Assembly (NCBI RefSeq): GCF_032854445.1
Contig: NC_088295.1
Location: 29,570,470-29,634,469, forward strand
Origin: Liolophura sinensis
Lineage: Eukaryota > Mollusca > Polyplacophora > Chitonida > Chitonidae
DNA length: 64,000 nucleotides
Direction of reading: 5' to 3'
Every line of letters begins with the position of its first letter. Positions within the stretch are counted from its first letter, which is position 1. Shown piece after piece: positions 3,403 through 27,678 of the stretch. Position numbers and translations under genes: made by a program. The notes beneath the pieces were generated by a model. The model was not told the origin of the DNA, did not search any database, and was given only the letters and a program-made list of their open reading frames with translations.

Positions 3403-3599
3403 TTATAAAGCTCCAAAATGCATTGAAACAAAATGCATTAATCTCATGAAATCGAGAAATTGTAGCCCACTACAGTCACACTAAAATATCTTTTTTGTAT
3501 TAGACACCAACTAAATAAATATATCAAAACTGGTATTTTTTAGTCAACTTAATCATATTCGATATATAACAAACAAACAAAAAAGGAAACAAAAACAAA

Positions 3600-3888
3600 A
3601 AAAACAAAACAAAAAAGAACAACATGCTTCATGTACTCCAAAGTGGGTGTGTTACTTCACTGTACTATAAAAGGACGCCTTCAGACATTATGAATTAAAA
3701 ATAGGATTTTAATTGCATTTTTTTGGTAATAATATGGAAGTTCAACATATCAGTGTGTAGATCTTGTGTTGTTACGTGTCACTGACTAAAGGCAATTTGG
3801 TAGCTAGATTTTACAGACAGCTAAATATCGGCAGCTCGCTAAGAGAAATAGAGTACAGATACATTGCTTATTAATATGGTGCCACAAT
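3600..3888. repeat. Direct repeat, right copy
   Basis: Partner of 1-289. It is preceded by an A/C-rich simple sequence (CAAA-type, about 3570-3619) that is probably present at the left copy too. The spacing is 3599 bp. Confidence 0.95.
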
Positions 3889-3899
3889 ACGCTAGAAAT

Positions 3900-5600: not shown

Positions 5601-5683
5601 TTAATCGAGCAATCGCTCGTGTCGGATTTTGCAGAAGTACGGATTTTACAGGATTCAAAACGGCGCCATTGCACATCGCAAGG

Positions 5684-5732
5684 ATGACATTCAAGCTTCT
5701 CTTACTTGGAGTCATACTCGCTGCAAATACAG
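5684..5732 (+). CDS. iGluR exon 1: signal peptide
   Basis: ATG at 5684 starts MTFKLLLLGVILAANT, a short hydrophobic signal sequence, and runs into a good donor (ACAG|GTAAGC) in phase 1. The split codon G+AT (Asp17) joins cleanly to the exon at 19195. The sequence from about 5600 to 5683 is probably 5' UTR. No TATA box or other core promoter is obvious. Assigning this exon to the receptor rests on phase, on signal-peptide character and on the lack of any other downstream partner. A transcript would settle it. Confidence 0.65.
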
Positions 5733-8700
5733 GTAAGCAGATTTATTCCAGTGATGTTTTTTATTATGACTTGTGGGCTAGTAGCCGGATGACATGACGT
5801 CATCGGGGGACAGCTGCCAATGTTGGAATGTTACATGGAGGTGAAAGGAAATGCCACATTGCAGGGAGGCCTCTGATTATAAACAGTGTTATTTTGCTAG
5901 CAGAAATACCCCTACAGATGCTGTACGCGTGTATTGATTAAATGGTATATGCAGTGAGTACGCCCTGATTGCGGCTTAACAACCACTGCACACAGGTAGT
6001 GGCAAAAAAAATACTTCACTAAGCATCAGTGAACAGCGTTGCAGTGAAGCCTGGGCTGAGCTACTGTAGTTTATTTATGAGGATGGCATACTTCTGCAGC
6101 TTAAAGCTGACGTACATTGCCGCCATGTTAAGTCCTCAGCAGTATCCTTCTGCCAGTCTATGCATGTTATCACCTACGTTACCCAATCAACAACACCCGG
6201 ATAATCAAATGTCAATGCATTTAATTGATCTTAATGATTTATTGTTATGCGCTAAATTACCACAGTTCAATGTAATACATTTATATATTATACTAAGCGC
6301 AACTCGAATAAAGGCAATCTTTCGTTTGAGTTGGTGGGGGATCTAATATTAGGGTAGTAGTAATATTAATATGGGTTTTCCAGTTCTAATTGATTTTTTT
6401 TCTTTTGATTCTAAAATACTTTGCTGCTCATAATCCTTTACGTGCTGCTGTGTGTAAGAAGTCAAATTTATGTTACAGAAACACTTGTTGACACAAGAAA
6501 ATTTCCTATATTTCCAAGGAACAGTTCTCAGCTAATGAAATTTGAATGATTTAGATGGCAAGGAACCGAAGGAATTATCATATGTATTGTATATAATTAA
6601 AGATGTATAGCACAGAGTAAAACAAAGCAGTGACGGTTCAGAGTGGCTCAGTCGGTTAGTGCGCTAGCGCAACGTAATGACTCATGAGTCTCTCACCAAT
6701 GCGGTCGCTGTGAGTTCAAGTCCAGCTCATTCTGGCTTCCTCTCCGGCCGTACGTGGGAAGGCCTGTCAGCAACCTGCTTATGGTCGCGGCTTTCCCTCG
6801 GGCTCTGCCCGGTTTCCTCCCACCATAATGTTGGCTGCCGTCGTATAAGTGAAATATTCTTGAGTACGGCGTAAAGCACCAATCAAGTAAATAAATAAAT
6901 CAAAGCAGTGACGACTGTGTGATATCTGGCAAATGGTCACACTTAACCGATAAATTACAGCCTGTTGTCTATTTACCTCGGTTAAGGATTTACCCTAACT
7001 GTTCATACAAATGCTTAAATAGTAGCAAATTACATGCTCCCTAGTATCACGTTTATGAGTTATGTAAAAATGTAGTATCAGGGTTATGTAAAAACAATGA
7101 TGTTAAGCGCAATTTATTTGACGTCACCGGTCTAGACTACTTTGAATGCTATGATGTCATCACATTTAACACTCAGTAACATAAAAACAATGCAAAGGGA
7201 CATTGACAATGGCATTGGCAGAGCTCAGTGATGTTGCAGTCGATGGCTACCAGCTATCAAGCGAGCTATGTACCCACTTGTTGCCCATATAATGGATTGG
7301 TGAATGTGTCATGATCCTTACGTAGGATATGTTTGTGCATAAATACCTCGCATGGAAGTTTTTTTTTGTTTCAAATGGAGGTGGGCATGCGCAATTGAGC
7401 GATGTTCATTATTATGCGAATGAGACTGTAACCTTCAAGAAAAATACCTCATTATGTTTAGACTGTGTTATAGAACGACGGAAGTGTTTCTTTCAGATAG
7501 ACAGAGGAGGCGTTTTTACTTAATAAAGATACCAACCGCTTCTATTTCCGTTTCTGGAGAGTTAATATATCCTTCAGATCGAAATGGTATTTTGTGAATT
7601 ACTCTTCAGTGGAGGTGTTGTTGATAGACAGGAAGGAGGAAATCTGTGAACCAAGCCTAAACTTACAAAGTGCATGTAATCCAAGGAAGTCGGTCAGGAT
7701 ATATATAATCCGTTTTGTTTTGATGGTTATCTTCTCTTTGTCTGGAACTCTTTCGCTTTTAGCAAATGTTCCCTTCCAGAACACTTTGCAAGAGTTCGAA
7801 TAAGAGATAATGATTATTTGCAGAAGCTTAATAAGGTGATGATGTGCATCCAATCAGCCGATCCATTTCACAGGTGATAAATTTAACCGCCCAGTGATCG
7901 GTGTCGGTGACAGTCAAAGCGAGAGAATTCAGTCAGTCAGCTGTTTAGTGAAGCAGCCATGTCTGGCAAAGGAAACCAAACGAATCGATCATATATAAGT
8001 AGACAATAAGCCAGCCAGGCAGCCATCCGCAGCAGACTCTCGTTCTATATCACCCTGCTATGTGGAATGAGATGGTAATCAGTCTCTTCTTTTCATCACA
8101 CGACCCATCATGTCCATCACGCCGAGCAATGCTTCAGTTTGACTGAAACGGCGTCAGACTATATGCGGATATTTTTCATTTTAACTGAAGGTACATTCAA
8201 GTTTACAAGTATGTCCAAAGGATTTGATCCCTATAAATCGGTTCGGCAAGAAGGAATAAATAATCTTTCGTGATTTTGACTAAGATTGAGTTGAATTATA
8301 TATTATTTCTGTGTAGGAAAATCAATTGTAATTCTTTTTGTTCGAAGAAATCATTTCAGAAGAGTCTCTATATATTAACTGAAAGACAGTATATCATAGA
8401 CTGGCTATTAAAACATTTCTTGCTTTGTGGCATTTTACTGTCACTTATATGTATGGCAATTGTGCAAGCTTACTCTAATCCAGGTGACTTTTATTTTCAA
8501 AACGTTGCCTCTACATTATTTCAAGAGGTTCTGTCAGTGAATCAACCCTTCTTAATACAAAATGTTGTCCCCTGTATCATAGAAAGATGTTCTGTAGTTG
8601 AATCTGTCCTACCTAATATCAAATTTTGTCCTCTATATTATAGAAAGAGAATCTATCAGTGAAAATATCCTTCGCAATACAAAATGTCCCCCTATATTGT

Positions 8701-11700
8701 AGGGGTTCTGTCAGTGAATCAGTCCTTTTTAATATAAACTGTTGTCCTCTATACCATAACAAAAGGTTCTAGCAGTGAATCAATCCTTCTTAATACAAAA
8801 TGTTCTCCTTTGTATCATAGCAAAAGATTCTAACAGTGAACCAGTGCTTCATATTACAAAATGTTGTCCTCTATATTGTAGCAAGAGGTTCTAGTAGTGA
8901 ATCAGTCCTTCCTAACACAGAATGTCTTCCTCTATACATTAGTAATTCCTTCTTAATTCCTTCCTTCCGTCCTTCCTAATACGGAATGGTGTCCTTTGTG
9001 TCATAGCAAGAGGTTATATAAGTGAACCAGTCCCTTCCTAATACAAAATGTTGTCCTCTATATTATAGTAAGAGATTCTAGCAGTGAATCAGTCCTTCCT
9101 AATACAGAATGTTGTCCTCTGTGTTACAGTATAAGGTTCTATCAATAAATCAGTCCTTCCTAATACGGAATGTTGTCCTCTGTGTTATAGTATAAGGTTC
9201 TGTCAGTAAATCAGTCCTTCCTAATACAAAATGTTGTCCTCTATATTATAGCAAGAGGGTCTAGCAGTGAATCGGTCCTTCCTAATACGGAATGTTGTCC
9301 TCTATGTTATAGCATAAGGTTCTATCAGTGAATCAGTCCTTCCTAATATATAATATTAACAAGGAAACCAGAGGATTACAAACAAATCCGCTTAATAGTT
9401 TAGGTGCGATATGTATCCTTGACAGTAATATGAGAGTAAATTGACACGTGAAAGTCTCATGTATTTGTATATGATATGGAACGATTTGAACGATGACGAG
9501 AGCTATGGAACTAAGTGCTATTCCATTGCATTAATCAGGAGTACAGAGCCTATAGACATCACAGTCTAGGGACACGTTTTCATTATGAGGTAGATTAGAC
9601 ATAACAATACAAGCCTCATATCACATCCGTCAGTGTTTATTGTACGAGGTCCCGTTTACAGGGCGTTAACTGATATACTGACTATTATATAAACAAGGCC
9701 GTCTATAAACTGACGGACTGATTTACCCAGCCAGCCAGAGCACGGGTAATTTCCAGCAATAATTAATTTGTCTGCATTGGCTGTTTCCTAGCTACATATG
9801 AAAATGGATTTGAGCGACAAACACACGACAGAGAGCTTTGTTTGCACGCTTCAGTTGTGGTATAGACTACTGCAGACACTGTACCCACCTGATGTCGTTG
9901 CACACGCAGATTTGCCAAAGTTACACGCGTATCCACTATGCCATTTTATTTATCAGCATGTACCATAGAGACTCGCTTTTGCTCGATCGACCTCATGATG
10001 ATGATGATGTTATTAATTACGCCGGGACAGGGAGGAGAGTTTACGGTGGAATGTTGATAAAGCTCGTCTAGCTCTGACCTAGCCCTTTGGGGGTAGAGAC
10101 TGTCCACACGGCATACTCCCTGATCGATGGCCAGTACCACGTTATTTACAAAGATGCTCAGTCTGTATTGGCCGGTACATTGATGTAACGTTGGAGTAGC
10201 CTTTGGGTCTACTGAACTGGAGATCCAGGTTTGCTCTCTCGCCTATAGGCTGACAGGCACTCGGGACACAAAAGCAGAAGGGCATTAGCAGATTCAACCT
10301 TCCGTGACCAAACCAGCGATCGTTACGTATCGATTTCTAGGCTACACGGCCTACGGAACTCAACAGATTGAATATAAATAAGTAACCACGTGACTCCTAC
10401 ATAGATGTTTTAACAATAGAGTCTGGTGGAATTTAAAAAAAAGGTACTGTAGCTTGTAAACTCGAGTAGAAAGGCTTTATAGTTTACCATTGCCACACAA
10501 CAGAGGCTATTGGGATACATTCCGATGGATGTCACCACCCTCACGTTGAGTAAATATTGACATATGTGTAGAAACTAAAAGGCTAACAGCCTAAATAATT
10601 CTGATCACCATTTTGGTACCAAAAGAATGGTATGCAAATATAAAGTTATTGTTAATTTTCAATAATAGTTATTTAACCACAATGTTTGAAATTTGTTTCT
10701 GACATGTATTCTGGTTTTTTTTTATTAATTTAATATAATAGTGTTATAAGAAAGAGCACACCAGATAAACTGACACATCACCAGATAAAATGACATCTCA
10801 AGGAGACCAATCATTGTAGTACAGTGTGTAATAGTTCGTTAGCAGCTGGTACAGTTACAATCCGCTCAGTCTTCCCCCCCCCCCCCCGGGAGGGTTCAGT
10901 CATATCAAGCGTATCATTGACCCAAAGGCATCAGCGCGTGACAAAATATGACCTTTAATACTTTATAAGGGTAAATGTCAGACATTGGATAAATGAAAGA
11001 ACGACAAAAAAGAAAGATTAAGCCGCTTATCAACGAAATTATAAACTAATAAATATGTGATCAAGATGATGATTGAACGAATAAACGTAAACTAAACGTA
11101 AAAGCGACAGTTCGAAAAACACCACGTACATGAATAAATTAATAAAAGAACGATAATACAAATTAGAGGTTGAAAGAGGAAAGAATTTAGGAAATAAAAC
11201 CTTCGTTTTGTCCTGAATCACAGATGTGTTTCTTGCCGATAAACATGATGTAACGTTCATTTTGTCCTGAATCACAGATGTGTTTCTTGCCGATAAACAT
11301 GATGTAACGTTCAGATCCAGTGACGAAAGCGCGTTCTGTATTGCACAGCACTTTCAATCACTTTTCATTCAGGCCTGCTAATAAAGGAAATCTAATGATT
11401 TCAGTAAAACTAGTTAAACTTTGACAGCAATTGCTGAAGCTTCTGGAACAACATAGTGGTTCTCTTCTTTTCATGGCTGCATGGCTGCATGAATGCATTT
11501 CAGTCTCCCGTAAATCGCTACAGAATACAAGAAACTGATATATTTCTTTATTCAATTTTAAAATACTTCGATCATTATAATTGATCTTTCCCCCAAGGGA
11601 AATAAAGGAACTAATGCAGACTCATTCGTTTCGCCTAAAATAGCGAAGAAAGCATGGAATAATACCAGCCCGTTTTATTGATACTGACGGAAACGTGCGT

Positions 11701-14700
11701 GGTACGGTAAAATATTAACTGGTGTGTACAGAATTTTGGACCATGTTGGTCGCTGTAGAGAAGACTGAAAACCTTTAGCATTGGTTATAAAAGTCCGTGG
11801 GTATAAATGTTCTGTGTGTGCACAGAATTGGAATATGAGCACAAAAACCTTTAGGTAATCTATCTGGCTTCTTAGTTTGCCTTCCAAGAACCGGTTCTGA
11901 TTAAAACGTATCTGTGCGCTTGGTTATAAGTAAAGGCTAATGGCATATCTTGGAAACTGATTTTCTGCGTCCAGCAATTTTGCTTAGCGTTATAAATGCT
12001 TTCGGCTGTGGATGGTAGTGTGACAAGTGATGCTCAGCTGTAAAGCGAACGAGAATATGAAGGAGTTAGACGTTGTCATCTAAATGTAGACGAGAGGGCC
12101 TCTTGATGTCCAAGCCTTTAAACGCGACGTCATGTGTCAAGAAACGTTATAAAATATGCTATCTGAATAAGGGGGCATTTTTTAAATAGCGTCACCTAGA
12201 TGGTATTGGGTATATAAGTAATGTTATAATGAAAGTAAAATATTTTTGAGCTTCTAGATTCAGAGAATGGCCTGGTAAAATAACACGAATCAAATAATAT
12301 CCCCTCATACGACATTCTAATAATATTAGCCCTATCTGGCAAAATGTGACATTTTTAACATGGTTTGTAAGTAGAAAGTAAATCACTGGTTGAAATCAAA
12401 AGACATTGTTTCCCAATGTGTACAGATGATTGGCAAGTTTTTCTATACCTTTCTGTCAGCATCATAGTTACATTTTACATTTTAATAAAGCGTCCCAAAA
12501 TATGTGAAAGCAATTGCATTTAAATGTAACAAAACCCAACAGACTTTTTATCCGCAAACTACTGAAAGATTGGGTGTGCAGTGGAAGACACTTTCACTCC
12601 TACATGGCAGGTAATTGCGTCCAAACGAAAGTTTTCTTAGTGATAAGGCAACTGGAGATGTAGGTAAATTAGGAGTGGTTCCTTTAATTTCTTAAAAAAT
12701 ATGGTTTTTGAGAGATTTGACTGCTGGACTTTGGCATTAAGATTGTTGAATTCAGATATTGGCTTAGAATAAGTGATACCACTTGCAATTAATTCTCCAA
12801 AGAAATGACAGACATCTAGTGAAATAGAGAATTGATTATCAGTATTAGTTTTCTATTCTCGACAAGAGTTTGATGGATTGGCTGAACGTCGCTGGGTCAG
12901 TATCGGCTCACCTTTGTCTGCGCTGTATCCTGTCAATATTTCTCGGGAAAATTAGGTTGTTAGAACACCCGGGCACAGTGGAGGCGAGAGAACCTATATA
13001 TTAAAAGTACATATCGGATATACAGGTGTCTGTTTCCAGGGCTATGTTGGCAACGTGGGGTGGAAAGATTCTTTGAGGCTTTTTGTGTGGCTTTACATGA
13101 AATTCAGTAGATCACGTGTTCCATGCCAATATGACTACTTCGTGTTTTACTTCGTCCTTGACCTTTTTTAGAGTACGGCGCACAACACCTATCAAATAAA
13201 TAAATAAATGAAATGAACAAATTTTCAGTCATATGACGACGAGAATTCAGTAGGCGTGTGCACGTTTCCTGTGACAGGGCCTCCACAGTGCTGCCGTCAC
13301 TGAAGTTTCATGCCGGAGACAGCAACCAGACATGACAACTTACCCCCCCCCCCCCCCCAGATCTGTGGGTGAAAAGCCGTGGGTCACACGTTTTTAAGAT
13401 CGACATTAAGATCGGTCATGCCACTTCATGTAGGTAATCATTGTAGTAAATAGTAACTGTCAAGTCAGAAATCAGCGTGTATAATGTCTGTGTCGACTCT
13501 TATTATCAACCGTAGGCCAACTTTAACATATTGATATTTTAACTATTTCGTTTTTGTATCTATCAAATGCAGACTATCTAATTTAGAATAAAGTCTGTGA
13601 TTTATGATAGCGTCATGTGTGTTATGAACTCCTCAAGTTTTTGGCCACGCCTTGTTTGTTACTTATTATCAACAGTGGAAAATAGATTTATTTATTTATT
13701 TGTTTGATTGGTCTTTTACGCCGTACTCAAGAATATTTCACTTATACAACGGCGGCCAGCATCATGGTGGGAAGAAACTGGAGAAAGTCCGGGGAAAGCC
13801 CATGCCCATCCGCAGGTTGCTGACAGACCTTCCCATGTACGGCAGGAGAGGAAGCCAGCATAAGCTGGACTTGAGCCATCGCATTGCTGAGAGGCTCCTG
13901 AACCATTGCGTTCCTCTGGCGTACTCACCACTTCGGTCATGGGGGTAGGTGATAATTATATACAAACATCTTGGAATACATTGTCGTGGGAGTTTTATAT
14001 ACAATCGACAGTGTTGCTGACATTACTGACGGTCTACGGGGCTGTGAAAGGTAAAGTCGACAGTGTTGTGGAAGTTATAGCGGGAAGGTACTATCGGCTG
14101 TGTGGTTGATGTTATAGTCGACAGTGCTGCCCCAGTTACAGTGGGTACACTGGTGAGAATTAGGTTTTGCAGGGGTAACAGTAGACGGTGTTTAGAGAGT
14201 TACCATCGACGGTGCAGTGTCAGGCGCTTATATGGATATCTATGGATATCTATGGATAACCATGGGTATCACTTGCTACGGTAATGTAACATAAGCAGAA
14301 TATGGGTCGCAAATCATACCATGTATTATAATGTGGTTAGTTTTTTTGTGACCATTGTATAACAAACTTTTATTCATTTCTACACAAATATTTGTGTAAA
14401 CAGAGCCCTGTTTATAAGTATTTGTTCAAGGCAGAATTTGCCGTCTGCCATGAGCTTACATAAGACGTGATCGGCCTGCAACCTGCGGATGGTTGTGGGT
14501 TTTCCGAGGCTCTGTCCAGTTTCCTCCCACCGTAATGATTCTCACCATCGTGTAAGTGAAATATTCTTGAGTATACGGCGTAAACTACCTATCAAATAAA
14601 TACATCAATGAATACATTAGGAGTTGGTCGGACTCTCCCTGGATCAGTCATCTAAGGTGTTGGCCGTCAACGTGTATCACAAACTCTTAACATGACATAC

Positions 14701-17700
14701 TATGATGGCATCCAATTCCCGCTGATTCCGCATAAATTTGTCTGGTAGGCTACCTAACGATGTGGTGTGGTCTCATCTGGGCTCTGTCCATTTATTCTCA
14801 GCCGTGTATTTTTAGATCGGACTAATAGAACATTCGTATTATCTTACTATAGGTATACAGGAGCCTATCGCTGGTTTATAAATATATTAGGTCTTGAAAT
14901 TGAAGATAGATCCGTTGCCTCTGTGGCTCAGTTGGTTAGCGCGCTAACGCAGCGTTATGACCCAAGAGTCTCTCACCAATGCGGTCGCTGTGAGTTCAAG
15001 TCCAGCTCATGCTGGCTTCCTCTCCGGCCATACGTGGGAAGCAACTTGCGGATGGTCGTGGGTTTCCCCCGGGTGAGATAATCTTGAGTACGGCGCAAAA
15101 CACCAATCAAATAAATAAATAAATAATAATAGAAGATAGGTCAAACACACAGTATGGGCTGGTTGTATCGGTGAACGTTTATGACTTTGAAAAAAATATT
15201 TTTTTTCAGCATAAGATGTAGGTAATGAGAATAAAGCTTTTTGGAAACAAATTGTTTTATAGTCAAAAGAAGGTATTTTCAAAACTTCCCAGTGGATCCT
15301 CCCTAATAAAATAAGAGTTAAACAGATTTGGGAACACATTCCAATTGAATACATGTGTGTTATATTATGGGCACATATAGTAACACATATTACAAAAAGG
15401 TACAAAGCACTCGGCGAAGGTAGCAGTTGCTACCCATAATGTAATAATGTTACTTTACGAGTGGCAAAGTCTATCCATATTGTAATATTATTACATTATG
15501 GGATTGCGTTACATTACGGGCGTCTAAAGGGAAGCGACCAGCCATTTGACCGCAAAAAGCCGCACGCTCAAGTCCAACTCTTTCCTTCTCGATCTCGGTT
15601 TCAAGCTAGAAGTTTTGTCAGGTTCCCAGCTACTTATAAGGGCCCCCATTAGTATTGTCAGTGTTGTATGCTGTATGAGCCATCCACGGTTTTATTCGAA
15701 TGAACAGTGCTCTAAATTAGCTAGAATTCCAGCAGTAGCTTTCCGGGCTAAGGACCCTTGAGATATATCATGGTCACTGAATATTAATACGATGTTAATT
15801 CCGCTGTGGCCAATGTTATTTAGTTCTTTGGTCTCTGGTATAGATTTACTAACGGATGGTATGTGTCGGATGTTTCTCTTCATCAAACTGACCCTACCGG
15901 TCAGGGACCCTTGAGAGTTATAAATATAAGGACTCATGTTAGCAAGGCGAAGAACAAATCCGACGAAATTCATGTCCTGGCTTCCAGCGAGTTACACAAA
16001 TGTGTGAACATGCAATATCCCGCGGAATCCCCACATATCTTCTTTGGTTCGGAAGTATATATCATGTAATTTTGTTTTATAGAACAATTTTATTTCTCAT
16101 GGCTTTCCATATTTTCTGCGTCATTCTCTAACGGTGATATTAAGCGGATCCAAAATGCAAATATTTATAGCGCCAGATGTCATGACAATACTCTGGAAGA
16201 ATGAGAATAAAACTGGAAAAGATTAACAAATTTGGAATACGCCTGGATAGCTATAGCGATAACGAAGTTCACGAGGTTTATGAGTAGCGCACTGCGTGAT
16301 GCGATGCAATTTCCGCAGTTTTCTGAACCATTCTCTAGCATGGCACTAATAGAGTTAGATATCTACTGGTCAGGTTTTGCAGCTGCTTTAGTAAACGCTG
16401 ACCAGTGAAATCAATCTAAACTCAATTGCCCGGACTAGACGAGGAAAACACGTCGCTTATATATGGACAACTGGAACGCTGGAGTGTGATTAGCCTGTGG
16501 TCTTTGAGGCGCTTATTTCATTTAGCTATACGAAGGTAAACACTGTGTTGGATCCAGTCACTCAGGGGAGTCTTGACTAACTTGTGGTATTAAGGAACCC
16601 ACGGGAAAGAAGCGGACGACGGCTCCACAATGCAAACATAGCATGCCAGTTAACCATTCCCGAAATGATGAAGGATTCAGCATTAAAAGTGACCACCATT
16701 TGTTCAACGCGCACACAAGGTCATTCCATGTACCGTGTTTTTTGTGTTATCATACAGTATTAAGAACTGTATACTTTTCTAATCGGTGAATTTCCTACCA
16801 CTCTCTCTGTTTATCTCAAATGTACTTCAATATCCGTTTATTTTCTGGAGAAACAGAATGCATTGTGTAGGAGCATGAACATTTAGGAGACAGGTAATAT
16901 TTGACCAGAAGTATTCATTAACTCGATTCTTCGAATATAGGTCTTATACATTTAAACAGATTAAGTGGCTAGTCTGTTATGTTCAAAGATATTTGGATAA
17001 TGCCTGACTTACGTTGAAACACAGGCATCCAACATGTATTCCCCTGAGGCCTTAATTTGGGGAGTTGAGATAAAAGTTCCTGGCTGTTGCCAGTTGATGG
17101 ATGACACTCTGGCAAGCTTGGAGAAACTAATATCTTATTCAAGTCTGACATATGAACTGGTATGATTTGCCCTTGCGTTCATTCACAACTTACGTCGGTG
17201 TTGTGCTCTCGGGTACGTGGTTATAATACTATATGGTCAGTTGTCAATTTGTTCGCTTTTTTCTCAGCTTAAGACATCTTCCAGGCTGTTCGTCATCGTT
17301 CGGCCACTATTCACATACATATAGAGTGATACAGATGGTTTTCTGTCTGAAAAACACAAACGCCAGAAACACCGAGGTAATGGGCTTTTGTTGCTATGCC
17401 TCCCAAGGGTGGGCGGCTTCCGTTGTGTACACGCCTGCCTGGTTTAACCAATCTAGGTGTGTTAGAAAGGGTTTGTGTGGCTGCACATCAGCCAGGCATC
17501 GTCCACGACAATAAGCCGGGAGAATCATCGGCTCTTCCCCGGGCCGGATTGAACATCAGTGGCCGAGTAAATTAGGTTTTCTACGAAGACTAATCTCATT
17601 GGCAGATTAAAGATTTTTCCTTTCTTTAGTTGTCGATAGAGAGCAATAGTCGAATAAAACAGAAGTAAATCGGTATTTAAATTTGTCCTGCTGGGACCCC

Positions 17701-20700
17701 ACAATCCGAAAGCAAAAATCGATTTTTCCAGAGTGAAGATTTGGAATATGGGTTTATTCTCCAGCGAGTTCTGATAACCAGGGATGTTCAGGTTTGCAGG
17801 ATACATTAACATATCGGTGGCATCGTTCGTTCACTGATTTGGTGACAAGTATTATAGTACTTTCCAGACAAGCCTTGCACTAATCGGTTTCAGTATGATA
17901 CACTCAGTGCATTGCTCTCCGATTTACGTCGTTAAGTGCCAAGATATGTTAAAGTTATGTCATTAATTCCTTCCTCTGTATGGTTTACTGTAACGCTACC
18001 GTGAAATACAAAATTCAATATCATTGCACAAATATCACTGAAAGGTCAAGTTCTGTACACAATGCCAATGTTGATTGCAACCTCAGTGCAAACTTTTGCC
18101 GAGAAAGGCATTCCAGTAAACAATGCCGATGTGTATGCCAGCTGAGAACTCACTGCCACTCTGACGCTTACCGTAGCTGACAATGTCGCTGGTTGTTTCA
18201 GCGCATCCATGTGAACAATGTTGCTGGTTGTACCAGTTCAGGCTGCCACTGTGAAGGCTATCTGAGTGAGCAGCAATCTAAGTGAACAATGTCATTGCTT
18301 GTCTCAGCGCACGAAACCACTGTGCTGTATCATTCAACACCGAGACTGGTTCAGTGCTCAATGAATAATGCCATTGTGAAAGCAATCTAAGTGGGAAATG
18401 CCATTATGGAAGCCATTATGGAAGCGCAAAACACATCTACCAAGGCCATTTTTATGGAAAATACAAGTGTTAAGTACATTTCAGAAATATTGCAGCATCT
18501 GCGAATGAGCCAAGATGGACTGGTAGGGGTGTACAGACAGATTGGGGCCTTTAATTTATTTATCATTTTGGATCGGTGTCGATTGCTGTTCTTGAGAATT
18601 TTGCACTCATATATCAAGTTTATGGATGGAAGAAACTGGAATGCCCGGAGTAAGTGCCTTTGACAATATGTTCGGTCGCCGTTGTATAATATTCTTGAGG
18701 ACAACGTAAAACACCAATCAATTAAATAAATAAATCAAATAAAAAGGCCTCGTTTTTGGTCATTCCAAAAACGGCCTGCTGCAGTAGAAACTCGTATCGT
18801 GGGTATGTCTGTTTTTGGTAATAAATACCCCAGCTGTCACCTGAATCATCATGGTGCAACTTTTTACAACCTTTATCTCGTTAATGTAAGTTATCCTCAG
18901 ATAGTTAATGAAAAATTAGTTCTCAGGTCGGATAGAAAAAAGCGAAAATATCAACTTTTAATGCCACAAATCGATCTCAAGCCGTACATCATTGTCAATT
19001 ACACGAGACCGAATATAATCCGGTGCGTTGACAGAGTAGAAAGAAAACATGTGGAGGGAAAATTAACAAAATCGATTAAAGTGGGACATGCACGGTGTTG
19101 AAATGCTGTTTTCATCAAGTTTTTCAATAATTAGACAAGAAAAGGAAATAAATTTCACCCAATACCTAATTTCCGCTCTGTTTATTTTCCACAGATCCTG
19201 CCTGGGGCGATAAGAAGAAGGTGGCTGTAATTATCGTGAGTGTTGCTGTTTTCATCTTCACCTACACATAACAACATGTAGGAAAGCTCAACAACAGCCA
19301 CTGTATTTCTATTTCTTAGAAGCCGTACATACTTAACAGTTTTAGCCTTGGCTATTTAAAGACAAAATCTCCGTCCATTAGATTGCTGAATAAGCCATCA
19401 GTCTATTATCTTGAGAAAATAACCAATTGTACCTCGAGAGCCTGGAGTCTTGACATCTGATAAACTGGCGATGGACATGCAAACAGCAAGAAGAAATGGC
19501 TGTTTCCAAGTGGGTTGGTCGAGAAAATTCCAGCAACTTTTAGGAGATATTCGTGAATATATAACCAGATTATTAATTTGTATTCTGTCAGTAAACATAT
19601 TGTGTCAACCAAGGCTGTGTGAAGAAATCCTACTTCTCTTGATATTTGGCATATATATTAACTTGTCATCACCTGTCTCTGAAGCTCGTTAATCCTAATA
19701 ACATTTCACATTGACCAGCACGGATGTTTGGCTTTTTCCACAGGCTCCTCCGTTTATATACGAGAGGGATGGAGGAGGTGACAACGTGACGTATGAAGGG
19801 TTAATCCCCGACGTTCTGAAGGATGTCACACGCCGGACAGGCATAGAGTTCACCATTACCCCCTTGGGCAAGGGCAAGTTTGGGGAAGCCGCTAACGAAA
19901 CATGGGCGAAAATGACAGACGTCGTCACCAACCAGGTCATTGTTTCATGATTCATAGAAGCCGGATACATTTGTTAGGTTGTGAGAGAGTTATATACACT
20001 TGTCAACTGGAGGGGATGTTGGACAGTTGATCAAAGAAAATAATTTTAACCAGATCAGAAAACATATAGCTTAGCTGGTCATACACATGTCAACTGTACA
20101 CAACATAAGTTGCTTTATCGTCCTATACAATTGCATGTAGGGCCCTACACTGTTCACGTAAGTTCTCGGTTAGTCAAAAGGATCTTAAACGAAGCCGGGA
20201 AGGGTGGGGTGCATTTCCGGGCAGTGGTCGAGGTGAAGGGTATAGAATTTTGCCTGTATGAAGTGCGTCATCATATAGAATTTAGCAATGAAAACAAAAA
20301 CAAGAAACCAGCTAGCAGTAAATTGTCTTGCTTTACCAATGCCACTAATCTACTTATACAACCGATAAATACCTGTATTAGACTTGTATGATTGTTCACT
20401 TTTCACATTATACTGTCTTTCACAGGGAATTGCTTCCAGCAAAGTTATCATGCCATATCTAGCCTAATCTCTAGGCTCGTTTTATTATAGTTTGAATGTT
20501 ATTTGTAATTCGACCACATTAACTTCTTGTACTCAGGAGGCTTACGTCGGCGCCGGTCCCATTCCTAAGACCCGATCCCATCCTCGAGGGATGCACTTCG
20601 CATCGACGCTGGTAGAGCATAAGGGCTGGGCAATCTTGATCAGGAAACCAAAGTTTCCTGCCAAGAATTACCTCAGAGAGGCCCTGTCACTGTTCAGACC

Positions 20701-23700
20701 ATTTGATCCCTCCGTCTGGCTCGCCCTGCTAGCTGTTTTCATCATTGTACGTATACGTTTTTATATTTATCTTATCGTCGAAATACATCTTCATTTTTCA
20801 AGTTGAACCATTGTTTAGAATTTAATTTGGCAGTTGTTAACAAGTAAGTAAAGTAAATAAATATTATAAGATGCCTTTTACGGTTGTCACGGCAAGGAAA
20901 GTTAAAAATGTGGACCATTTTATGGAATGCCCTGTCTCTTCTAAACTTGTCACCCTGGTCAAATTTTCCAAATTGCACCTTTATTTCTTTGTTCAGGTGA
21001 ATATTTTATTCCAGAGGGCTGCTAGTCAGAGGCCTTTTGGTTACATTATAAGCAGCTAATAATCCGACATGTACTTTCTATCTAACTGTTATTGGGCATC
21101 AAAGGCTGGACATTGTAGCCGTACCTATTATTTTCGTGTAAACGGGTAGCACTTGTACTGACCTTGAACATCTATTGTTTTCATGTAAATAGGTAGAACT
21201 TCTACTGACCTAGAACATCTATTGTTTTATGTAAACAGGTAGCACTTCTACTGACCTTGAACAACCTAATTAACCCCAACGAATACAGATACCTGTACAA
21301 GAGGGACAAGCTTCAGAAGAAAGATGCGAGCCACTTTGGACCGTTTGGGAGCTTCCTCTTTGCCTTCAGCACGCTGACTTGGCAAGGTAATGATCCTTTA
21401 TACCCTGATTCTGGTGCAAGTTTGCAATACATGTAACTTGTCATTTATTTTTTAACCTATTGATCATTAGTTTCATCCCACCATAATGTTAAACACCAGT
21501 TATATAAATAAATATTAATCATCTTCTTGTTCAACTTCTAATTTGATATGGACGACCTGTCATGAATTAATATCATGAATCCGGCCATAACATAGAAGGG
21601 CTACAGATACTTACAGATAATTTCCCCTTTTAAAATTAACATATATTGAGTTGGGTGAATACGATTTTCTTTGGGATGTGGTAGTGGGAACAGAAAACGA
21701 TTCTTCATTTCCCGTTATCGTTTGACCTGCGTTTGTATTCACGACATGGGCCCGCGGCCAAGCTGTGTAGTTGTTTACGTCTGGTTGGCCGCTGTGGTAG
21801 TCGTCCGCCATAGGATGGTTGCTTCAAGGGTGAAGTTGTATCCACAGCTGCTCCGTACCAACATTACCTGACAGGACAGACGGATCAAGGCACTTGGGCA
21901 TCAAACAGAGGCCGGCCAATCAATAATTACTCCGGCTTGTAAAAAATGTTGACGTGCAACATTTAGAATGAAAAAAATGTAACAGGCAATCTCCTCCATC
22001 GATTTTACGCAATGTGTAATTCTGCTGTAAAGGAGCTTATTTTCAGACAATGTGAAAAAACAAGTAGTGGGAAATGCATAAATTCCACATAAAAGGAACA
22101 CAGATAAAGTGACATGGTTCATTGTGATAAATGATTCGGCAATTAATCATTTTCTGGGACGACTGGTATATTCATGGAAGGGCTCTAGAGGCTTTTACAG
22201 TGATTGAAAATGTATTTTTACGATAAATTTACTCTGCCTCCTCATATTCACTTTAATCGAGTCAACCGATTTTTTTTCTTTCACATGTGAGAGATTGAGG
22301 TTCAAGCCCGAGTCAAGGCATGTCTAGCAGTGGTGTGTACATTATGTTGACTAAAATCACGGAATACATGAACAGTGACCGTGTTGAACAAATTCGCCAT
22401 GTTGGATTATGTGAGCCCAAATGCATATTTTTGATTAACAACAATTTAAAAACTAGCATGACACATGCTTTAAATTTTGACAAAATGTACGTGCATAAAG
22501 CATATCCATTTCATATATTTATTTGATTGATGTTTTACTCGGTACTCAACAATATAGGCCTTACACGACGACGGCTAGCATTATTGCGGAATGACATCAT
22601 CTGCAGACTCTCAGTATGTCTCGCGTGTTTGTGTTAATGCTGGACATATAGATCTCAGTCACATGCTAAATCAGTTGTATGTACGTCCAGCATGTAATTA
22701 AAGACATACTTAATGCGAGCTGTATTAAATCTTATTCATTGTCGAAGTGGACAGAGGACTAGCTCACGTTTTGAGTCTTTGATGTTCAGATTTACTCTCA
22801 TGCCAAGCACCAGTTGCGTGTGTGTATCAAGTCAATACACGAGCAGCTGTACGCGTATGCTTATGGTATAAATAAATAATGCGACTCCCGTTACCAGGTT
22901 ATGTCAGAAACATCGTCAAACATCAAGCCCAGCTAAGCTATTTTTATCTAGGGCAGAGATTGTAGACATCACGCTGTTAACCGGCTATTGGGTAGCGTGA
23001 ATCAGACTCATTTTCAGTCATCACACACGCTAAGTAACTGTATGCTTAAAACACTAGCACTATTATACAGTACATTTAACATTGAGCATTCGTTTACATC
23101 ATGATGTAAAAATACACTTATGACATAGTGGTATTCAAAGGTTTTTAATGCGGGAATTTCCTCCAGCCATTGTCTTGTATGCCGAGAACTAATATATCTG
23201 AGTTATCTACCCTCAGGCATCATCCAGATGGCGCTATGCCGATATTTGTCATGGGCCATGACTGAGTATTGCTTCCTATTGAGATTCCTCAGTCATGCAG
23301 AACAGAGATAAACAGTACGAAATATAAACTGCTTTTGGTATAAAATCTGCCACTTAAAAGGTACAGAGCCGTTAAAGATAATCAAATATATACACTTTGT
23401 CTACTGCACTGACACAATGCAACCAAGCATGTAAATACAACATTTTGTCTATTGTAACGCTGCACTGTCACATCGCAATCAAACATGTATATACAACACT
23501 TTGTCTACTGTAACTCTGCACTGTCACATCGCAATCAGACATGTGAATAAACACTTTATCTACTGTAAAGCTGCACTGTGATATAGCAATCAAACATGTA
23601 AATACAACAGTGTGTCTACTGTAATACTGCACTGTCACATCGCAATCAAATATGTAAATAAACACTTTGTCTACTGTAACGCTGCATTGTCACAGCACGA

Positions 23701-26700
23701 TCAAATATGTAAATACAACAGTTTTTCTTCTGTAACGCTGCACTGTCACATCGCAATCAAACATGTAAATACAACAGTTTGACTACTGTAACGCTGCACT
23801 GTCACATCACAATCAAACATGCAAATACAACACTTTGTCTACTGCAGAGCTGCACTGTCACATCGCAGTGAAACATATAAATACAACAGCTTTTCTTCTG
23901 TAAAGCTGCACTGTCAAATCGCAATCAAACATGTAAATACAACACTTTGTCTACTGGTACGCTGCACTGTCACATCGCAATCAAACATGTAAATAAACAC
24001 TTTATCTACTGTAACGCTGCACTGTCACATCGCAATCAAACATGTAAATACATCACTTTGTCTACTGGTACGCTGCACTGTCACATCACAATCAAACATG
24101 TAAATACAACAGTGTGTCTACTGTAAAGCTGCACTGTCACATCGCAATCAAACATGTAAATACAGCAGTTTTTCTTTTGTAACGCTGCACTGTCACATCG
24201 CAATCAAACATGTAAATACGACACTTTGTCTACTGTAACGCTGCACTGTCACATCGCAATCAAACATGTAAATACAACAGTGTGTCTACTGTAACGCTGC
24301 ACTGTCACATCGCAATCAAACATGTAAATACAAAAGTTTGTCTACTGCAAGGCTGCACTGTCACAGCACAATCAAACATGTGAATACAAAAGTTTTTCTT
24401 CTGTAACGCTGCACTGTCACATCGCAATCAAACATGTAAATACAACAGTTTGTCTACTGCAACGCTGCACTGTCATAGCGCAATCAAACATGTAAATACA
24501 ACACTGTTTGCTGTAACGTTGCATTGTCACAGCGCAGTCAAACATATAAATACAACACTTTGTCTACTGTAACGCTGCACTGTCACATCACAATCATATA
24601 ACATGTAAATACAACACTTTGTCTACTGTAACGCTGCACTGTCACATCACAATCATATAACATGTAAATACAACACTTTGTCTACTGTAACGCTGCATTG
24701 TCACATTGCAATGCACTTTCAGATCATTTGTACATGAGTCTAACTAGCAATTATTGATATTTCAGCGTAATAATGCCTTATACTTTAGGTCAGCATGTTA
24801 TAGCCACAGTCCCACTTAAAGGGATATGGAATCGACGCTGATTAGCTGAGAGTGGAGATTGGGTTTCCTTGGTTACATGTTGCAGCCTTGGTATAAATGA
24901 ATAAACCTTACCTAAAATTCAGTTTAAACAAAGCCTAACCTGACCTTTTCTATCTCTCACACCAGTCAGTCAGAATCCTCTCTCGCTCGCCGATCAGAAT
25001 CGATACTGTTTCCCTTTAAATGTGTGAACCAGTTAAATCTGTCATTAACTTTAAATAATAAAGTAATAATGTCCCTCTAACGTTGTATTAAGACAAAGCT
25101 GGTATATTGAGAGTTAATTCTGACGTAAATTATGAAAAACTGGCCTATCCTGCAGAAAAAAAATATGTAGTAGAATCAACAAGATATTTGACGAAGGATA
25201 GAATAATAATGGCTGTCAATGAAAAAACAGACCAACAACAATCCGAAGTGATGAGTTAGACGACCGAGACAATATAATTTAAGCAAACTTAATATGAAAG
25301 TTAACATGGAAAGAATCATGGTATGCGTTTTGTTTCTCTTTATAGGATACGAAAAAGCACCTCGGTCAAACAGTGCCCGTGTTCTGGTCATGTTCTGGGT
25401 GGCTTTCGTGGGAGTAACACTGGTGGCTTATGTTGCTAACTTATCCGCATATCTGATGACCGTCGCCAACAAGCCAGCATCCCGCTTAACCCCGCCTGTC
25501 CAAGGTGTTCACGATCTGATTGCCAGCAACATCAAATTCGGGACGATCGGTGGCTGGCCAACTCTAAAGGCCCTGGCGTCCTCCGGTAACAACTCCGTGT
25601 CTGAGCTGGCCCAAGCCCTGGAGAGCAGAGGCCAGCACGTGAGCACTGTCCAGGAGGGCATCAACAAGGTGACCAATGAAAACTACGCCCTAGTCATCGA
25701 TAGTGTCATTGCGGACAACGTCGTCAACAGTCACTGCAACATCATGTCCGTCGCAACTATTCCGTCTGATATTAAGTGGTATGCTTTTGCCACAAAACAT
25801 CAACATCACCAGGACTTTGAAACAGCCGTCGCTGAAGCTAAAGAGGACGGCACCATGCGCAGAATAGGCAAGAAATGGCTACAAGAGGAGACGTATTGCA
25901 AACCCGAGCCCAAAACCGATGTCATTGGGGGCGTCTACTTCGCTCCCATCAACATATATCAGTTTGTAGGTCCACTGTGCATCGTAGGTGCTGGCATTGT
26001 CCTTTGCATCGTTGTTACCCTCGTTGAAATCTTCATATATATGTTAGAAACACGGGTAAGTCAGCATGCTAAAAATGCCAAATTCTACAGCAGAACTATG
26101 GTTTTGTAACGTTGTAAAGTGCTAACATCTTTCCGGTGAACAGAGGTTTTCTTTCAAAATGCCTTGTGCAAAGGGAGATAATATAAGGGCAGATAACTCG
26201 TATGGAAGCGTGATGGTCTTCCCTCGAACATGACTGCTATCCCACTGACATGGCTAACAAAAAAGAGTTAAATGCTTTATGAATATGGCGTTCAACGCTA
26301 ATTAATCAGTCAGTTATTAAAGGAACCAATCGTTGTTTGGATGTGATACAATTTTACGAAATTGACGGTTTGAGCATTTGTTCGGCTCGGGGAACTGACA
26401 TGTACACTATGTCTTTTACCAGTGTTTCCGTAAGAGAGATGAAGTAAGCATGCAAGCGTTGAGAGACGAGACTCACTCTGATAACATTGACGGTCTTCAC
26501 TATGGACCAGCCGAGCAGACCGAACCAGCCCCTGCCCCACGTCAGCCCGAGCACTGGGTGTGCTCCTCTGTAAGTTGATGTTTCTTACACTTATATATAT
26601 ATATATGTCATGTATACGAGCAAATATATTTCAAAACTGATTGGCTCATACCCTATTCTAGGTTCACTCTGTACCATTACGACGTACAGCATAGAGAGAG

Positions 26701-27678
26701 AAACCAGAGCAGCGACGACAGTGTGATAGCTGGCAAATACTTGTAGTCAAATACTATTTTAAATACGAATCTTGTTAATTTATGTCAGTTAGGGTTTTAT
26801 TCTAACTACTTGTGTAAATGCAGTTTATTATACGCCACTGGTCTAGAATCAGGCAATACGCTGTGTTCTCATCACATTTAACATAACATTAAAACAATGC
26901 AAAGGGGCTGGGAGAAGTAGTCCACCAGCAGGATCCTGGTTTATACAGGAATACAATAAACTTAAAAATGTACAGCGTAGGGGATAAAACCAGAGCAACG
27001 AGAACAGTGTGGTAGCTTGAAAATGGTTAGACGTAGCACAAGAGGCCGGTTGTTTAAAAGTTTATTGAAAGATAAGGCACACTTAAATCTCGTTACAAGT
27101 CTCATCTTAGTATAACCAAATAACGCTGTAGACTGGGCTAAAGTTAATACAAGATTTAAGTACTAATACACTTAAAAGTGAACAGGCCTTCTCTACGGTT
27201 GTGTGATTGTCACATCTATATTTTCCTGATCGCATCCCCATAAGCCGATAATGTTATCTTGCTCTCAAACGTATGGTAATTTGATAGCCTTTGATGCCAA
27301 CCATTCAATTAAGGAACTGTCAGAAATACATGTACATCGGAATTGAAAATGTCCAGGTCATTATTATTTTTATTATGTTTTATTACATCAGTTTACTGCC
27401 CTGTATTCAAATATTCATTTTTGTTTTCATCCCATCTTGATTAATGATTAGATGTAATGAAGGATTCAGTGGCTGTGGCGTTGTGATGAGCGATATTCAT
27501 TAAACATGACTGCTATTCTACAGTTGTTGCTGATCCTCTGACTTTAACAATGTATTCTCCACCGCTGCGATAGGTTCGTCAAGCACCACTCGCCGGAGGG
27601 CGAAACAACGCGTCAAAGGACGAGATGAGGCGTCTCCATGACAACCTGCAGGATATTCCTGACATCGATGACATCTAA
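5684..27678 (+). CDS. Ionotropic glutamate receptor subunit lacking the amino-terminal domain (8 exons, 533 aa predicted)
   Basis: Ligand-gated cation channel of the plasma membrane. The exons are 5684-5732, 19195-19235, 19744-19935, 20537-20746, 21239-21386, 25346-26055, 26423-26569 and 27574-27678. All boundaries are AG..GT and phases agree at every junction (1,0,0,0,1,0,0). Layout: signal peptide 1-16; S1 about 24-150; M1 about 150-174; pore loop 200-214; M3 225-252 with AYVANLSAY (241-249) for SYTANLAAF; S2 253-400 with the conserved disulfide pair C344/C398; M4 about 417-446; cytoplasmic tail 447-533. Only about 14 residues separate the signal peptide from S1, so the usual 380-400 aa amino-terminal domain is absent. 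Known families with this shape are the rotifer AvGluR1 type, prokaryotic GluR0 and protostome IR receptors. Odd residues: H109 where the carboxylate-binding Arg sits, P104, P285, and W212 at the Q/R site. Extra exons inside the 13.5-kb intron 1 cannot be excluded. Confidence 0.9.
6605..7200 (+). repeat. Repeat family C, copy split by a SINE
   Basis: The segments 6605-6635 and 6901-7200 form one copy: TAAAACAAAGCAGTGACG, TGTGTGATATCTGGCAAATGG, AACTGTTCATACAAATGC, ATGATGTCATCACATTTAAC, AACATAAAAACAATGCAAAG. It is the most complete copy in the window. Confidence 0.8.
6636..6900 (+). mobile_element. SINE family A, full length, with target-site duplication
   Basis: tRNA-like head with A box (GGCTCAGTCGGTTAGTGCGC) and B box (GTGAGTTCAAGTCC), core CACCATAATGTTGGC, tail ending AATAAATAAAT. 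The 13-bp CAAAGCAGTGACG occurs on both sides (6623-6635 and 6901-6913). It splits a family C repeat. Confidence 0.92.
8495..9352. repeat. Minisatellite, 61-bp period, about 14 copies
   Basis: The unit contains GGTTCTGTCAGTGAATCAGT and CCTTCCTAATACAAAATGTT. Unit starts fall near 8528, 8589, 8650, 8705, 8765, 8825, 8889, 9012, 9066, 9135, 9196, 9257 and 9318, with a disrupted stretch at about 8940-9000. It lies in iGluR intron 1. The 130-codon ORF at 8270-8662 runs into it and is not a gene. Confidence 0.92.
10874..10887. repeat. Poly-C tract (14)
   Basis: Uninterrupted C run within intron 1. Confidence 0.95.
11206..11313. repeat. Perfect 54-bp tandem duplication
   Basis: Two adjacent identical units, 11206-11259 and 11260-11313, starting TTTTGTCCTGAATCACAGAT. 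Perfect identity implies a recent event or an assembly artefact. Confidence 0.95.
13171..13209 (+). mobile_element. SINE family A, 3' tail fragment
   Basis: GAGTACGGCGCACAACACCTATCAAATAAATAAATAAAT. A family B core fragment follows directly. Confidence 0.7.
13216..13345 (-). mobile_element. SINE family B, core fragment
   Basis: TTTTCAGTCATATGACGACG and CAGTGCTGCCGTCACTGAAG match the B copies at 38630 and 46830. It ends in a 16-base C run (13343-13358). Confidence 0.65.
13684..13930 (-). mobile_element. SINE family A, minus strand, nearly complete
   Basis: Starts with TTATTTATTTATTTG, then ACGCCGTACTCAAGAATATTTC and the core, and ends in a degraded tRNA-like head. The short ORFs on both strands here are SINE translations. 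Confidence 0.9.
14000..14260. repeat. Degenerate short repeats
   Basis: Several spaced copies of GTCGACAGTG(T/C)TG with GT/TA-rich linkers, then TATGGATATC three times in a row (14229-14258). They are too diverged for a firm period. Confidence 0.5.
14466..14605 (+). mobile_element. SINE family A, 3' half
   Basis: CAACCTGCGGATGGTTGTGG, TTTCCTCCCACCGTAATG, GTGAAATATTCTTGAGTA, and the AATAAATACATC tail. Confidence 0.85.
14915..15129 (+). mobile_element. SINE family A, internally deleted
   Basis: Intact tRNA-like head (GGCTCAGTTGGTTAGCGCGC; B box GTGAGTTCAAGTCC). The core jumps from TTTCCCCCGGGTGAG to ATCTTGAGTACGGCG, losing about 60 bp. Tail AATAAATAAATAAATAAT. Confidence 0.9.
15433..15502. 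repeat. Imperfect 20-bp inverted repeat (hairpin)
   Basis: CCCATAATGTAATAATGTTA (15433-15452) pairs with TAATATTATTACATTATGGG (15483-15502) with one mismatch over a 30-nt loop. It may be a small foldback element. Confidence 0.75.
15510..19190. other. iGluR intron 1, right part: no further exon recognised
   Basis: Several short ORFs but none with splice sites in a usable phase plus receptor-like motifs. At about 18050-18320, short diverged repeats around GAACAATGT(C/T)..TTG are present. A SINE A tail lies at 18676-18742. Confidence 0.45.
18676..18742 (+). mobile_element. SINE family A, 3' fragment
   Basis: GTTGTATAATATTCTTGAGG..ACACCAATCAATTAAATAAATAAATC. Confidence 0.7.
19195..19235 (+). 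CDS. iGluR exon 2: start of S1
   Basis: This 41-nt exon lies between a strong pyrimidine tract ending CCACAG and the donor ATC|GTGAGT. It encodes D-PAWGDKKKVAVII, the typical first beta strand of an iGluR ligand-binding domain, just before the APPF motif of the next exon. It enters in phase 1 and leaves in phase 0. It is too short to find by ORF length and was placed by motif and phase. Confidence 0.8.
19744..19935 (+). CDS. iGluR exon 3: S1 ligand-binding lobe
   Basis: This exon gives 64 codons in phase 0/0, between TTTTTCCACAG and CAG|GTCATT (a weak donor). Residues 31-94 begin APPFIYERDGG and hold YEGLIPDVLKDVTRRTG, which matches the S1 pattern YEGFCxDLxxxxAxxxG. F34 lies where AMPA receptors have the ligand-cage Tyr; GluN1 also has Phe there. 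The end, TWAKMTDVVTNQ, aligns without a gap to the W-x-GMxxEL region that precedes the ligand-binding TxxxxR segment. Confidence 0.9.
20537..20746 (+). CDS. iGluR exon 4: rest of S1 and start of M1
   Basis: This exon gives 70 codons in phase 0/0, with acceptor TACTCAG and donor ATT|GTACGT. Residues 95-164 include GAGPIPKTRSHPRGMHF, which corresponds to APLTITxxRExxxxF. By that gapless alignment the Thr that contacts ligand is P104 and the invariant Arg is H109 (codon CAT, one transition from CGT). FASTLVEHKGWAILIRKP follows as expected, and WLALLAVFII begins M1. Confidence 0.92.
21131..21265 (+). repeat. Triplicated intron-exon junction (46-47-bp unit) at iGluR exon 5
   Basis: Three tandem units, each a T-rich stretch, GTAAA(C/T)(A/G)G and then GTAG(C/A)ACTT(C/G)TACTGACC. 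The exon-like part starts at 21146, 21193 and 21239. Copy 1 has GG instead of AG. Copy 2 has a usable AG but runs into TAG after six codons. Copy 3 is the coding acceptor. Confidence 0.9.
21239..21386 (+). CDS. iGluR exon 5: M1 end, pore loop
   Basis: This exon is 148 nt, entering in phase 0 and leaving in phase 1 (CAAG|GTAATG). Residues 165-213 finish M1 (VALLLTLNNL), cross a charged cytoplasmic linker (YKRDKLQKKD) and form the pore helix FGSFLFAFSTLTWQ. With the next exon the filter reads TWQGYEKAPRS, against M(Q/R)QGCDISPRS in AMPA receptors. That places W212 at the Q/R site. The acceptor region is triplicated; only the copy at 21239 continues into open frame. Confidence 0.92.
22516..22592 (-). 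mobile_element. SINE family A, minus-strand fragment
   Basis: TTTATTTGATTGATGTTTTACTCGGTACTCAAC, then ACGACGGCTAGCATTATTG. Confidence 0.75.
22593..23390. other. iGluR intron 5, no feature recognised
   Basis: Unique-looking sequence between a SINE fragment and the 57-bp minisatellite. Confidence 0.4.
23395..24716. repeat. Minisatellite, about 57-bp period, about 23 copies
   Basis: The unit reads roughly CAATCAAACATGTAAATACA, ACACTTTGTCTACTGTAACG, CTGCACTGTCACATCG. Units vary by substitutions and small indels; the last two carry an extra ATAA (CAATCATATAACATG). It sits in iGluR intron 5. Confidence 0.95.
25346..26055 (+). CDS. iGluR exon 6: M3, S2 and M4
   Basis: This 710-nt exon runs from CTTTATAG|GATAC to ACACGG|GTAAGT. 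It encodes GYEKAPRS, M3 with AYVANLSAYLM, the whole S2 lobe and M4 (about 417-446, ending LVEIFIYMLETR). In S2, GTIGGWPT puts P285 and T286 at the Ser-Thr pair that binds the gamma carboxylate. D332 (YALVIDS) replaces the AMPA/kainate Glu, as in NMDA-type subunits. C344 and C398 are the conserved disulfide. If the donor is not used, the frame stops at 26107-26109 after 17 more residues, giving a possible short-tail form. Confidence 0.95.
26423..26569 (+). CDS. iGluR exon 7: cytoplasmic tail
   Basis: This exon has 49 open codons in phase 0/0 between GTCTTTTACCAG and CTCCTCT|GTAAGT. It encodes CFRKRDEVSM and then an acidic, Pro-rich stretch ending HWVCSS. Basic residues straight after M4 suit the cytoplasmic side. 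Composition is more GC-rich than the flanking intron. It was found by splice sites and phase, not by homology, and could be alternatively included. Confidence 0.75.
26680..26906 (+). repeat. Repeat family C
   Basis: ACAGCATAGAGAGAGAAACC, AGAGCAGCGACGACAGTGTG, CATCACATTTAACATAACAT, ACAATGCAAAG. Lies in the last iGluR intron. Confidence 0.8.
26968..27058 (+). repeat. Repeat family C, 5' part only
   Basis: ACAGCGTAGGGGATAAAACC, AGAGCAACGAGAACAGTGTG, AGAGGCCGG. Directly follows another copy. Confidence 0.7.
27574..27678 (+). CDS. iGluR exon 8: C terminus and stop
   Basis: The acceptor is CTGCGATAG. The exon then has 34 codons, VRQAPLAGGRNNASKDEM to DIPDIDDI, and TAA at 27676-27678. It joins in phase 0 to exon 7, and would also join directly to exon 6 if exon 7 were skipped. 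The acidic C terminus ends in DDI, which might act as a weak PDZ-type ligand, but that is speculative. Confidence 0.75.
   Translation, partial: VRQAPLAGGRNNASKDEMRRLHDNLQDIPDIDDI

Follow-up and report, generated by a model that had tools for sequence, protein, structure and literature searches.

A chiton gene for an ionotropic glutamate receptor-family subunit with Ionotropic Receptor-like anatomy and no detected amino-terminal domain

The stretch of DNA analysed here, called the window, is a 64-kb segment of the genome of the chiton Liolophura sinensis (C1:29570470-29634469), and on its plus strand, at 5684-27678, it holds an eight-exon gene for a member of the ionotropic glutamate receptor (iGluR) superfamily. 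Coordinates are window positions unless a contig is named. The joined exons amount to 1602 nt and encode 533 amino acids (aa) and a stop codon, with GT..AG borders throughout (Table 1). An initial annotation of this DNA had proposed the same eight exons and 533-aa product, and its model proved correct to the base, every border being GT-AG. Relatives were sought in the whole assembly of 609,464,459 bases in 632 contigs, a genome published as 609.5 Mb in 632 scaffolds (PMC11068029), the species having later been re-identified as L. sinensis (PMC12441733). Eight matches to the haemocyanin beta-sandwich family, a molluscan one, are consistent with this origin.

Read from its amino terminus, the protein consists of a predicted signal peptide, the S1 lobe of the ligand-binding domain, the membrane helix M1, a pore loop, M3, S2 and M4. 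Two Pfam families, Lig_chan-Glu_bd PF10613 (E 1.9e-8) and Lig_chan PF00060 (E 2.1e-20), match it above cut-off and in order, and with S1, pore and S2 so arranged the product is a member of the iGluR superfamily. The best matches among solved structures are GluA2, whose chain aligns to residues 27-446, and GluK3 (27-453), both with E about 1e-27, which puts the S1-to-M4 part far beyond chance. The view that the gene encodes a metazoan iGluR-family subunit is thus borne out, and the genome is that of a mollusc. No family of the amino-terminal domain (ATD) was found in the Pfam scan of the 533-aa protein.

Table 1. The window gene and its first intron
Feature	Position	Strand	Content
Exon 1	5684..5732	+	Start codon and predicted signal peptide MTFKLLLLGVILAANT; ends in phase 1; donor CAG/GTAAGC
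Exon 2 (41 nt)	19195..19235	+	DPAWGDKKKVAVII, first beta strand of S1
Exon 3	19744..19935	+	S1 lobe of ligand-binding domain
Exon 4	20537..20746	+	End of S1 (His at the GluA2 Arg position) and most of M1
Exon 5	21239..21386	+	End of M1 and pore loop; Q at the Q/R site (TWQG)
Exon 6	25346..26055	+	M3 (AYVANLSAY), entire S2 and M4, undivided; likewise undivided in L005-L008
Exon 7	26423..26569	+	Cytoplasmic tail, from frame and splice borders
Exon 8	27574..27678	+	End of tail and stop codon; ATTAAA motif within 30 nt downstream
First intron (13.5 kb)	5733..19194	+	ATD exon not found

At the 5' end a signal-peptide exon joins in phase, through the single 41-nt exon, straight to S1. The initial annotation had described this path and the gene model reproduces it, with exon 1 standing as a prediction. 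The 41-nt exon ends (KKVAVII) at a phase-0 intron directly before the PF of S1, and an intron acceptor just before the PF or PY of S1 was also recognized, by reading, in 12 other loci compared. Coding-potential scores are positive for exons 2-8, and homology supports the 41-nt exon as real. The nearest genes in the genome by BLAST, 26-30% identical, lie at C6:4.73 (L005), C1:57.11 (L006), C6:14.36 (L007) and C6:14.40 (L008); three of them have one first-S1-strand exon each, of 39 nt in L005, 45 nt in L007 and 51 nt in L008. The counts come from a loosened pattern, the strict one being blank even in the window; it gave exactly one candidate each in the window, L005, L007 and L008, and none in L006 or in L009, a locus taken up below. 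Loosened further and applied to 8 loci, the pattern matched only in L011, L012 and L006, the single L006 match being unconvincing. At L012 (C6:45.55 Mb) the first-strand exon is tandemly doubled (IVKVVTVV, IVKVVTVL), possibly as alternative exons.

Exon 1 is the only strong in-phase signal-peptide first exon in 1-19194 (19.2 kb), and a scan of the same stringency found none on the antisense strand and none elsewhere in the window. In the relatives, signal-peptide exons join the first-strand exon in frame as well, in L005 and L008 by scan and in L007 by inspection, its donor score of 3.6 lying below the cut-off of 4. The scan also returned first-exon candidates that were not used, in L008 at 13182 (phase 0), in L008 in phase 1 and in L007 in phase 2; on the antisense strand, which served as control, L008 had 2 matches.

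ATD exons are detectable in this genome, since a genome-wide search with PF01094 (158 candidates, 115 scored, 103 of these matching) placed one no more than 40 kb upstream in 11 of 68 iGluR-like loci, with 2-12 kb between it and the channel exons. Around the window gene the search drew a blank for 2 Mb, the nearest match on the same contig, at 31.78 Mb, being 2.1 Mb off; the PF01094 domain by which ATD-bearing iGluRs (AMPA, kainate, delta, NMDA) are recognized thus appears to be absent. An AMPA/kainate-type ATD model, built from the GluA2 ATD and exons of this genome, recovers all 6 of 6 left-out training exons (E 1.4e-31 to 7.6e-11). Over both strands of the full 64 kb its best E was 0.81, and across L005-L008, with 14-16 kb upstream of S1 covered for each, the best E overall was 0.47. 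Codon-based coding potential shows no excess in intron 1, where the best plus-strand segment scores 17.6 and the best antisense one 19.7; of six control ATD exons from other genes, five reach 27-36 on the coding strand. Several of the top-scoring segments of the intron lie, by reading, in stretches that recur in the window, and others do not. Pfam, run on 10 of the 25 plus-strand open reading frames (ORFs) of at least 60 aa within intron 1, found no family except one stray at E 0.086. The proposed ATD-less layout holds in that no ATD was detected by any of these four routes, given an exon 1 that is predicted only. A tandem array of about 14 copies of a ~61-bp unit occupies 8498-9348 inside the intron. 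Upstream of the relatives, a 143-codon high-scoring segment before S1 of L005 was rejected as an ATD exon, being a PGKPPDLEPQTTSE tandem repeat, and high-scoring ORFs before L008 were read, without a family search, as an LRR/EF-hand neighbour gene and a Tc1-type transposase.

The ligand-binding residues depart from those of a glutamate receptor. At the GluA2 contacts R/T/E the window gene has H/T/D, that is, His for Arg, Thr kept and Asp for Glu, and with this set the protein is unlikely to bind glutamate in the customary manner. ATD-bearing iGluRs combine an Arg in S1 with an Asp or Glu in S2 for the amino-acid ligand; here the Arg is replaced by His, with Thr and Asp retained. Ionotropic Receptors (IRs) lack at least one of the glutamate contacts R, T and D/E (PMC4890853), and most of those that are not co-receptors lack an ATD (PMC2924276), and the predicted window protein shows both features. 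Its pore loop, TWQG, has Q at the Q/R site and no TXVGYG K+ filter, and this pore, taken with what is established for iGluRs, suggests a non-selective, Ca2+-permeable cation pore. The M3 motif, AYVANLSAY, is degenerate.

Rather than the lone odd gene it was first taken for, the window gene groups with three or more relatives that share its anatomy. L005, L007 and L008 share with it a signal-peptide exon, a tiny first-S1-strand exon, M3-S2-M4 in one exon (as also in L006) and no ATD found, and the idea of a single ATD-less gene was rejected on these grounds. All four also have W before Q-G in the pore, which the remaining 44 of the 48 aligned rows do not show; two of these 44 (L019, L039) have partial letters there. 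Unlike the window gene, these three keep the glutamate contacts R, T and E, and their exon 1 joins in phase 0 instead of phase 1. L006 is an uncertain member of the group, given its lack of start exons, its contacts N, T and N and its long branch in the trees. An intronless S2 is not unique to the ATD-less group, since L002, L003, L010, L011 and L012 also have an exon undivided from late S1 to S2, M1 included; in L010, M4 is on a separate piece.

The gene is real, IR-like and probably functional, and we hold with some confidence that it encodes an ATD-less iGluR-family channel subunit working like an invertebrate IR. An earlier suggestion that it is a chemosensory-type receptor fares well in part: the IR-type layout and the lost glutamate Arg would fit it. 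In such a subunit the clam-shell domain would close on some small non-glutamate ligand, or on nothing if the subunit is a silent partner, and closure would open a non-selective, probably Ca2+-permeable cation pore. Assembly would proceed through the ligand-binding and membrane domains. Most likely the subunit would form a heteromer with an ATD-bearing co-receptor in a sensory cell, for example with L040, a putative IR25a-type subunit by its motif. Counting against this step is the indication that IR76b, an ATD-less fly IR, may act without IR25a or IR8a (PMC5615767), which leaves the co-receptor step an analogy only.

A closer question is whether the gene is an IR by descent. A molluscan IR in the strict sense, stemming from the IR25a-containing lineage and orthologous to gastropod IRs, is a serious possibility, if somewhat short of an even one. 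Layout and size are as in published snail IRs, which have variable contacts (PMC4890853, PMC12837371). The relevant trees were built without an outgroup and with IR sequences from this genome alone; they used 44 of 46, 39 of 46 and 41 of 48 rows (the last including GluD2 and GluN3A), short rows having been dropped and, from every tree, L004 as a copy of L010. Their grouping of the window gene with L005-L008, three of which keep R/T/E, speaks against strict IR descent, at support values of 95/92 (44 rows), 95/93 (39 rows) and 96/92 (41 rows), and 96/96 when L006 is left out. Forcing the window gene to join either of two large divergent clades is likewise disfavoured by the approximately unbiased (AU) test (p 0.043 and 0.042). 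It falls among the iGluR classes, whose deep order is unresolved in the 41-row tree. With no outgroup and a very long branch for the gene, the trees do not show the early branching that the initial annotation had also raised. Weighing on the other side, the window gene is the longest branch, at about 2.0 changes per site, and adjoins the long L006 branch, as a warning from the tool points out; its nearest row by plain identity is the IR25-type L009, presumably IR25b-like by its motif, at 29% over 259 columns and outside its group; and the AU test does not reject a tree that forces it to join the two IR25-type rows (p 0.116). With these points, and no outgroup, the grouping is fair rather than strong evidence.

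A further proposal, which we would also put below even chances, is that the window gene belongs to a small chiton clade of non-IR, AMPA/kainate-related receptors that lost the ATD as a group. L005, L007 and L008, with their intact glutamate site, would then be glutamate receptors that naturally lack the ATD, and the window gene would have lost its contact Arg later, a second and independent route from a synaptic-type to an IR-like receptor. If this is true, such naturally ATD-deleted receptors, their binding site intact, would reveal how iGluRs come together and are trafficked when the domain regarded as the guide of assembly is missing. Should the group fall outside the IR lineage, IR-like anatomy would have evolved more than once, and absence of the ATD would by itself be no marker of an IR.

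The gene might also encode an ordinary non-NMDA iGluR with ATD exons that escaped detection, through strong divergence, a place inside the 13.5-kb intron or a start in a different first exon. This is unlikely, with several observations in its favour all the same. The intron is long and the ATD is poorly conserved in iGluRs; the first version of the ATD model missed 2 of the 11 fetched ATD loci (L054 and L059) and is weak on L055 (E 0.39), L056 (0.0097) and L057 (6.7e-4); and the sixth coding-potential control, the true ATD exon of L053, scores only 14, the level of the intron background. Since the model is weak on other ATD types and L053 sits at background, a diverged ATD could remain. The predicted signal-peptide exon, only moderately better than chance, is the weakest link of the gene model: of 200 dinucleotide shuffles, 23 yield one or more such candidates and 6 a candidate with an equally strong donor, and looser settings, and only these, bring up a weaker rival first exon at 18505-18649. 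Moreover, because its phase differs from that of the relatives, the junction of exons 1 and 2 may not be homologous to theirs. Set against a missed ATD are the negative domain model, coding potential and Pfam results and two features of the relatives. From the signal-peptide exon of L007, accepted on inspection, to its tiny S1 exon is only about 1.0 kb, a gap too small for an ATD, and the DNA similarity of L007 and L008 covers the S1, M1-M2 and M3-M4 exons, with only multi-match, repeat-like stretches upstream. A decaying gene copy is very improbable, for despite the longest branch, the lost arginine and the degenerate M3 motif the frame stays open for 533 codons, all eight exons are canonically bordered, and exons 2-8 score positive for coding potential.

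Several further features of the window and the genome were noted. A 47-bp unit in three tandem copies (21125-21263) overlies the acceptor and opening bases of exon 5, where, by reading, only the last copy works as the exon edge, since the upstream copies lack the AG or carry a stop. The intron preceding exon 6 contains a minisatellite of 23 copies of a 56-bp unit (23404-24712). A direct repeat of 289 nt, 98% identical, occupies 1-289 and 3600-3888, 3.6 kb from start to start, and possibly represents mobile-element ends, and an ORF at 34916-35389 has a weak match (E 3.9e-4, under the curated cut-off) to a Tc3-type transposase helix-turn-helix. Elsewhere on C1, iGluR/IR-like genes are clustered at 6.07-6.31 Mb (13 loci) and 47.48-47.87 Mb (9 loci, five with near-equal scores), with no PF01094 match up to 40 kb upstream of the cluster genes. 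At C1:18794819-18804393 (L057 and L033, C1:18.80 Mb) an ATD-like exon lies 9 kb upstream of L033, a gene of one of the divergent clades; that clade is thus not simply ATD-less, and the IR-like label of the divergent clades is tentative.

Among known receptors, GluR0 and AvGluR1, with which the initial annotation had compared the layout, resemble the window gene in having a ligand-binding domain fused to a pore, and GluR0 is also ATD-less (PMC11479355). Both have the K+ filter TXVGYG (PMC3483616, PMC12332018), in contrast to TWQG here, and GluR0 is without the M4 (PMC11479355) that the window gene possesses. A receptor of the GluR0/AvGluR1 type was therefore rejected, and the suggested kinship is not supported; nor does the literature on AvGluR1, in its available portions, bear out the absence of an ATD that the comparison had assumed. 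Receptors of the AMPA/kainate type also resemble it, GluA2 and GluK3 being the best matches among solved structures and sharing Q at the Q/R site, and a kainate-type locus of this genome, L001, has the same intron before the PF or PY of S1. Differences from this type are that no ATD was found, that His replaces Arg, that AYVANLSAY stands in place of SYTANLAAF, and that the end branch measures ~2 changes per site.

Divergent or tuning IRs, BglaIR3 and BglaIR5 among them, resemble the predicted protein in having a ligand-binding domain with a pore loop and three membrane helices but no ATD, a length of about 500-530 aa and incomplete glutamate contacts. In the fly, the ATD is found only in IR8a and IR25a and most IRs are without it; IR21a, 40a, 64a and 93a have long N-termini that are not ATD-like, and the others have about 200 aa before S1 (PMC2924276), compared with ~7-8 aa after the predicted signal peptide in the window gene. 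Fly tuning IRs without an ATD pair with ATD-bearing co-receptors (PMC6472016, PMC5615767). Among molluscs, BglaIR3 (517 aa) and BglaIR5 (506 aa) of Biomphalaria are listed as full length, without an ATD and with incomplete contacts (PMC4890853), and the lengths of gastropod IRs start at 436 aa (PMC12837371). A mollusc receptor of this size that lacks an ATD is thus a known kind. Among animal iGluRs, surveys also distinguish epsilon, lambda and AKDF group II receptors (PMC6307864, PMC12226733). BglaGluN12, a full-length iGluR with R/T/D, has no ATD called, and its 1092 aa leave room for one (PMC4890853). No mollusc iGluR combining the short layout with an intact glutamate site was found in this partly covered literature, and none of the ten best-ranked titles on chitons dealt with chiton IRs or iGluRs. 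Where the window gene departs from the IR picture is in its nearest relatives in the genome, which keep R/T/E. Its own predicted anatomy would be ordinary for an IR; less ordinary are the ATD-less relatives that look competent to bind glutamate.

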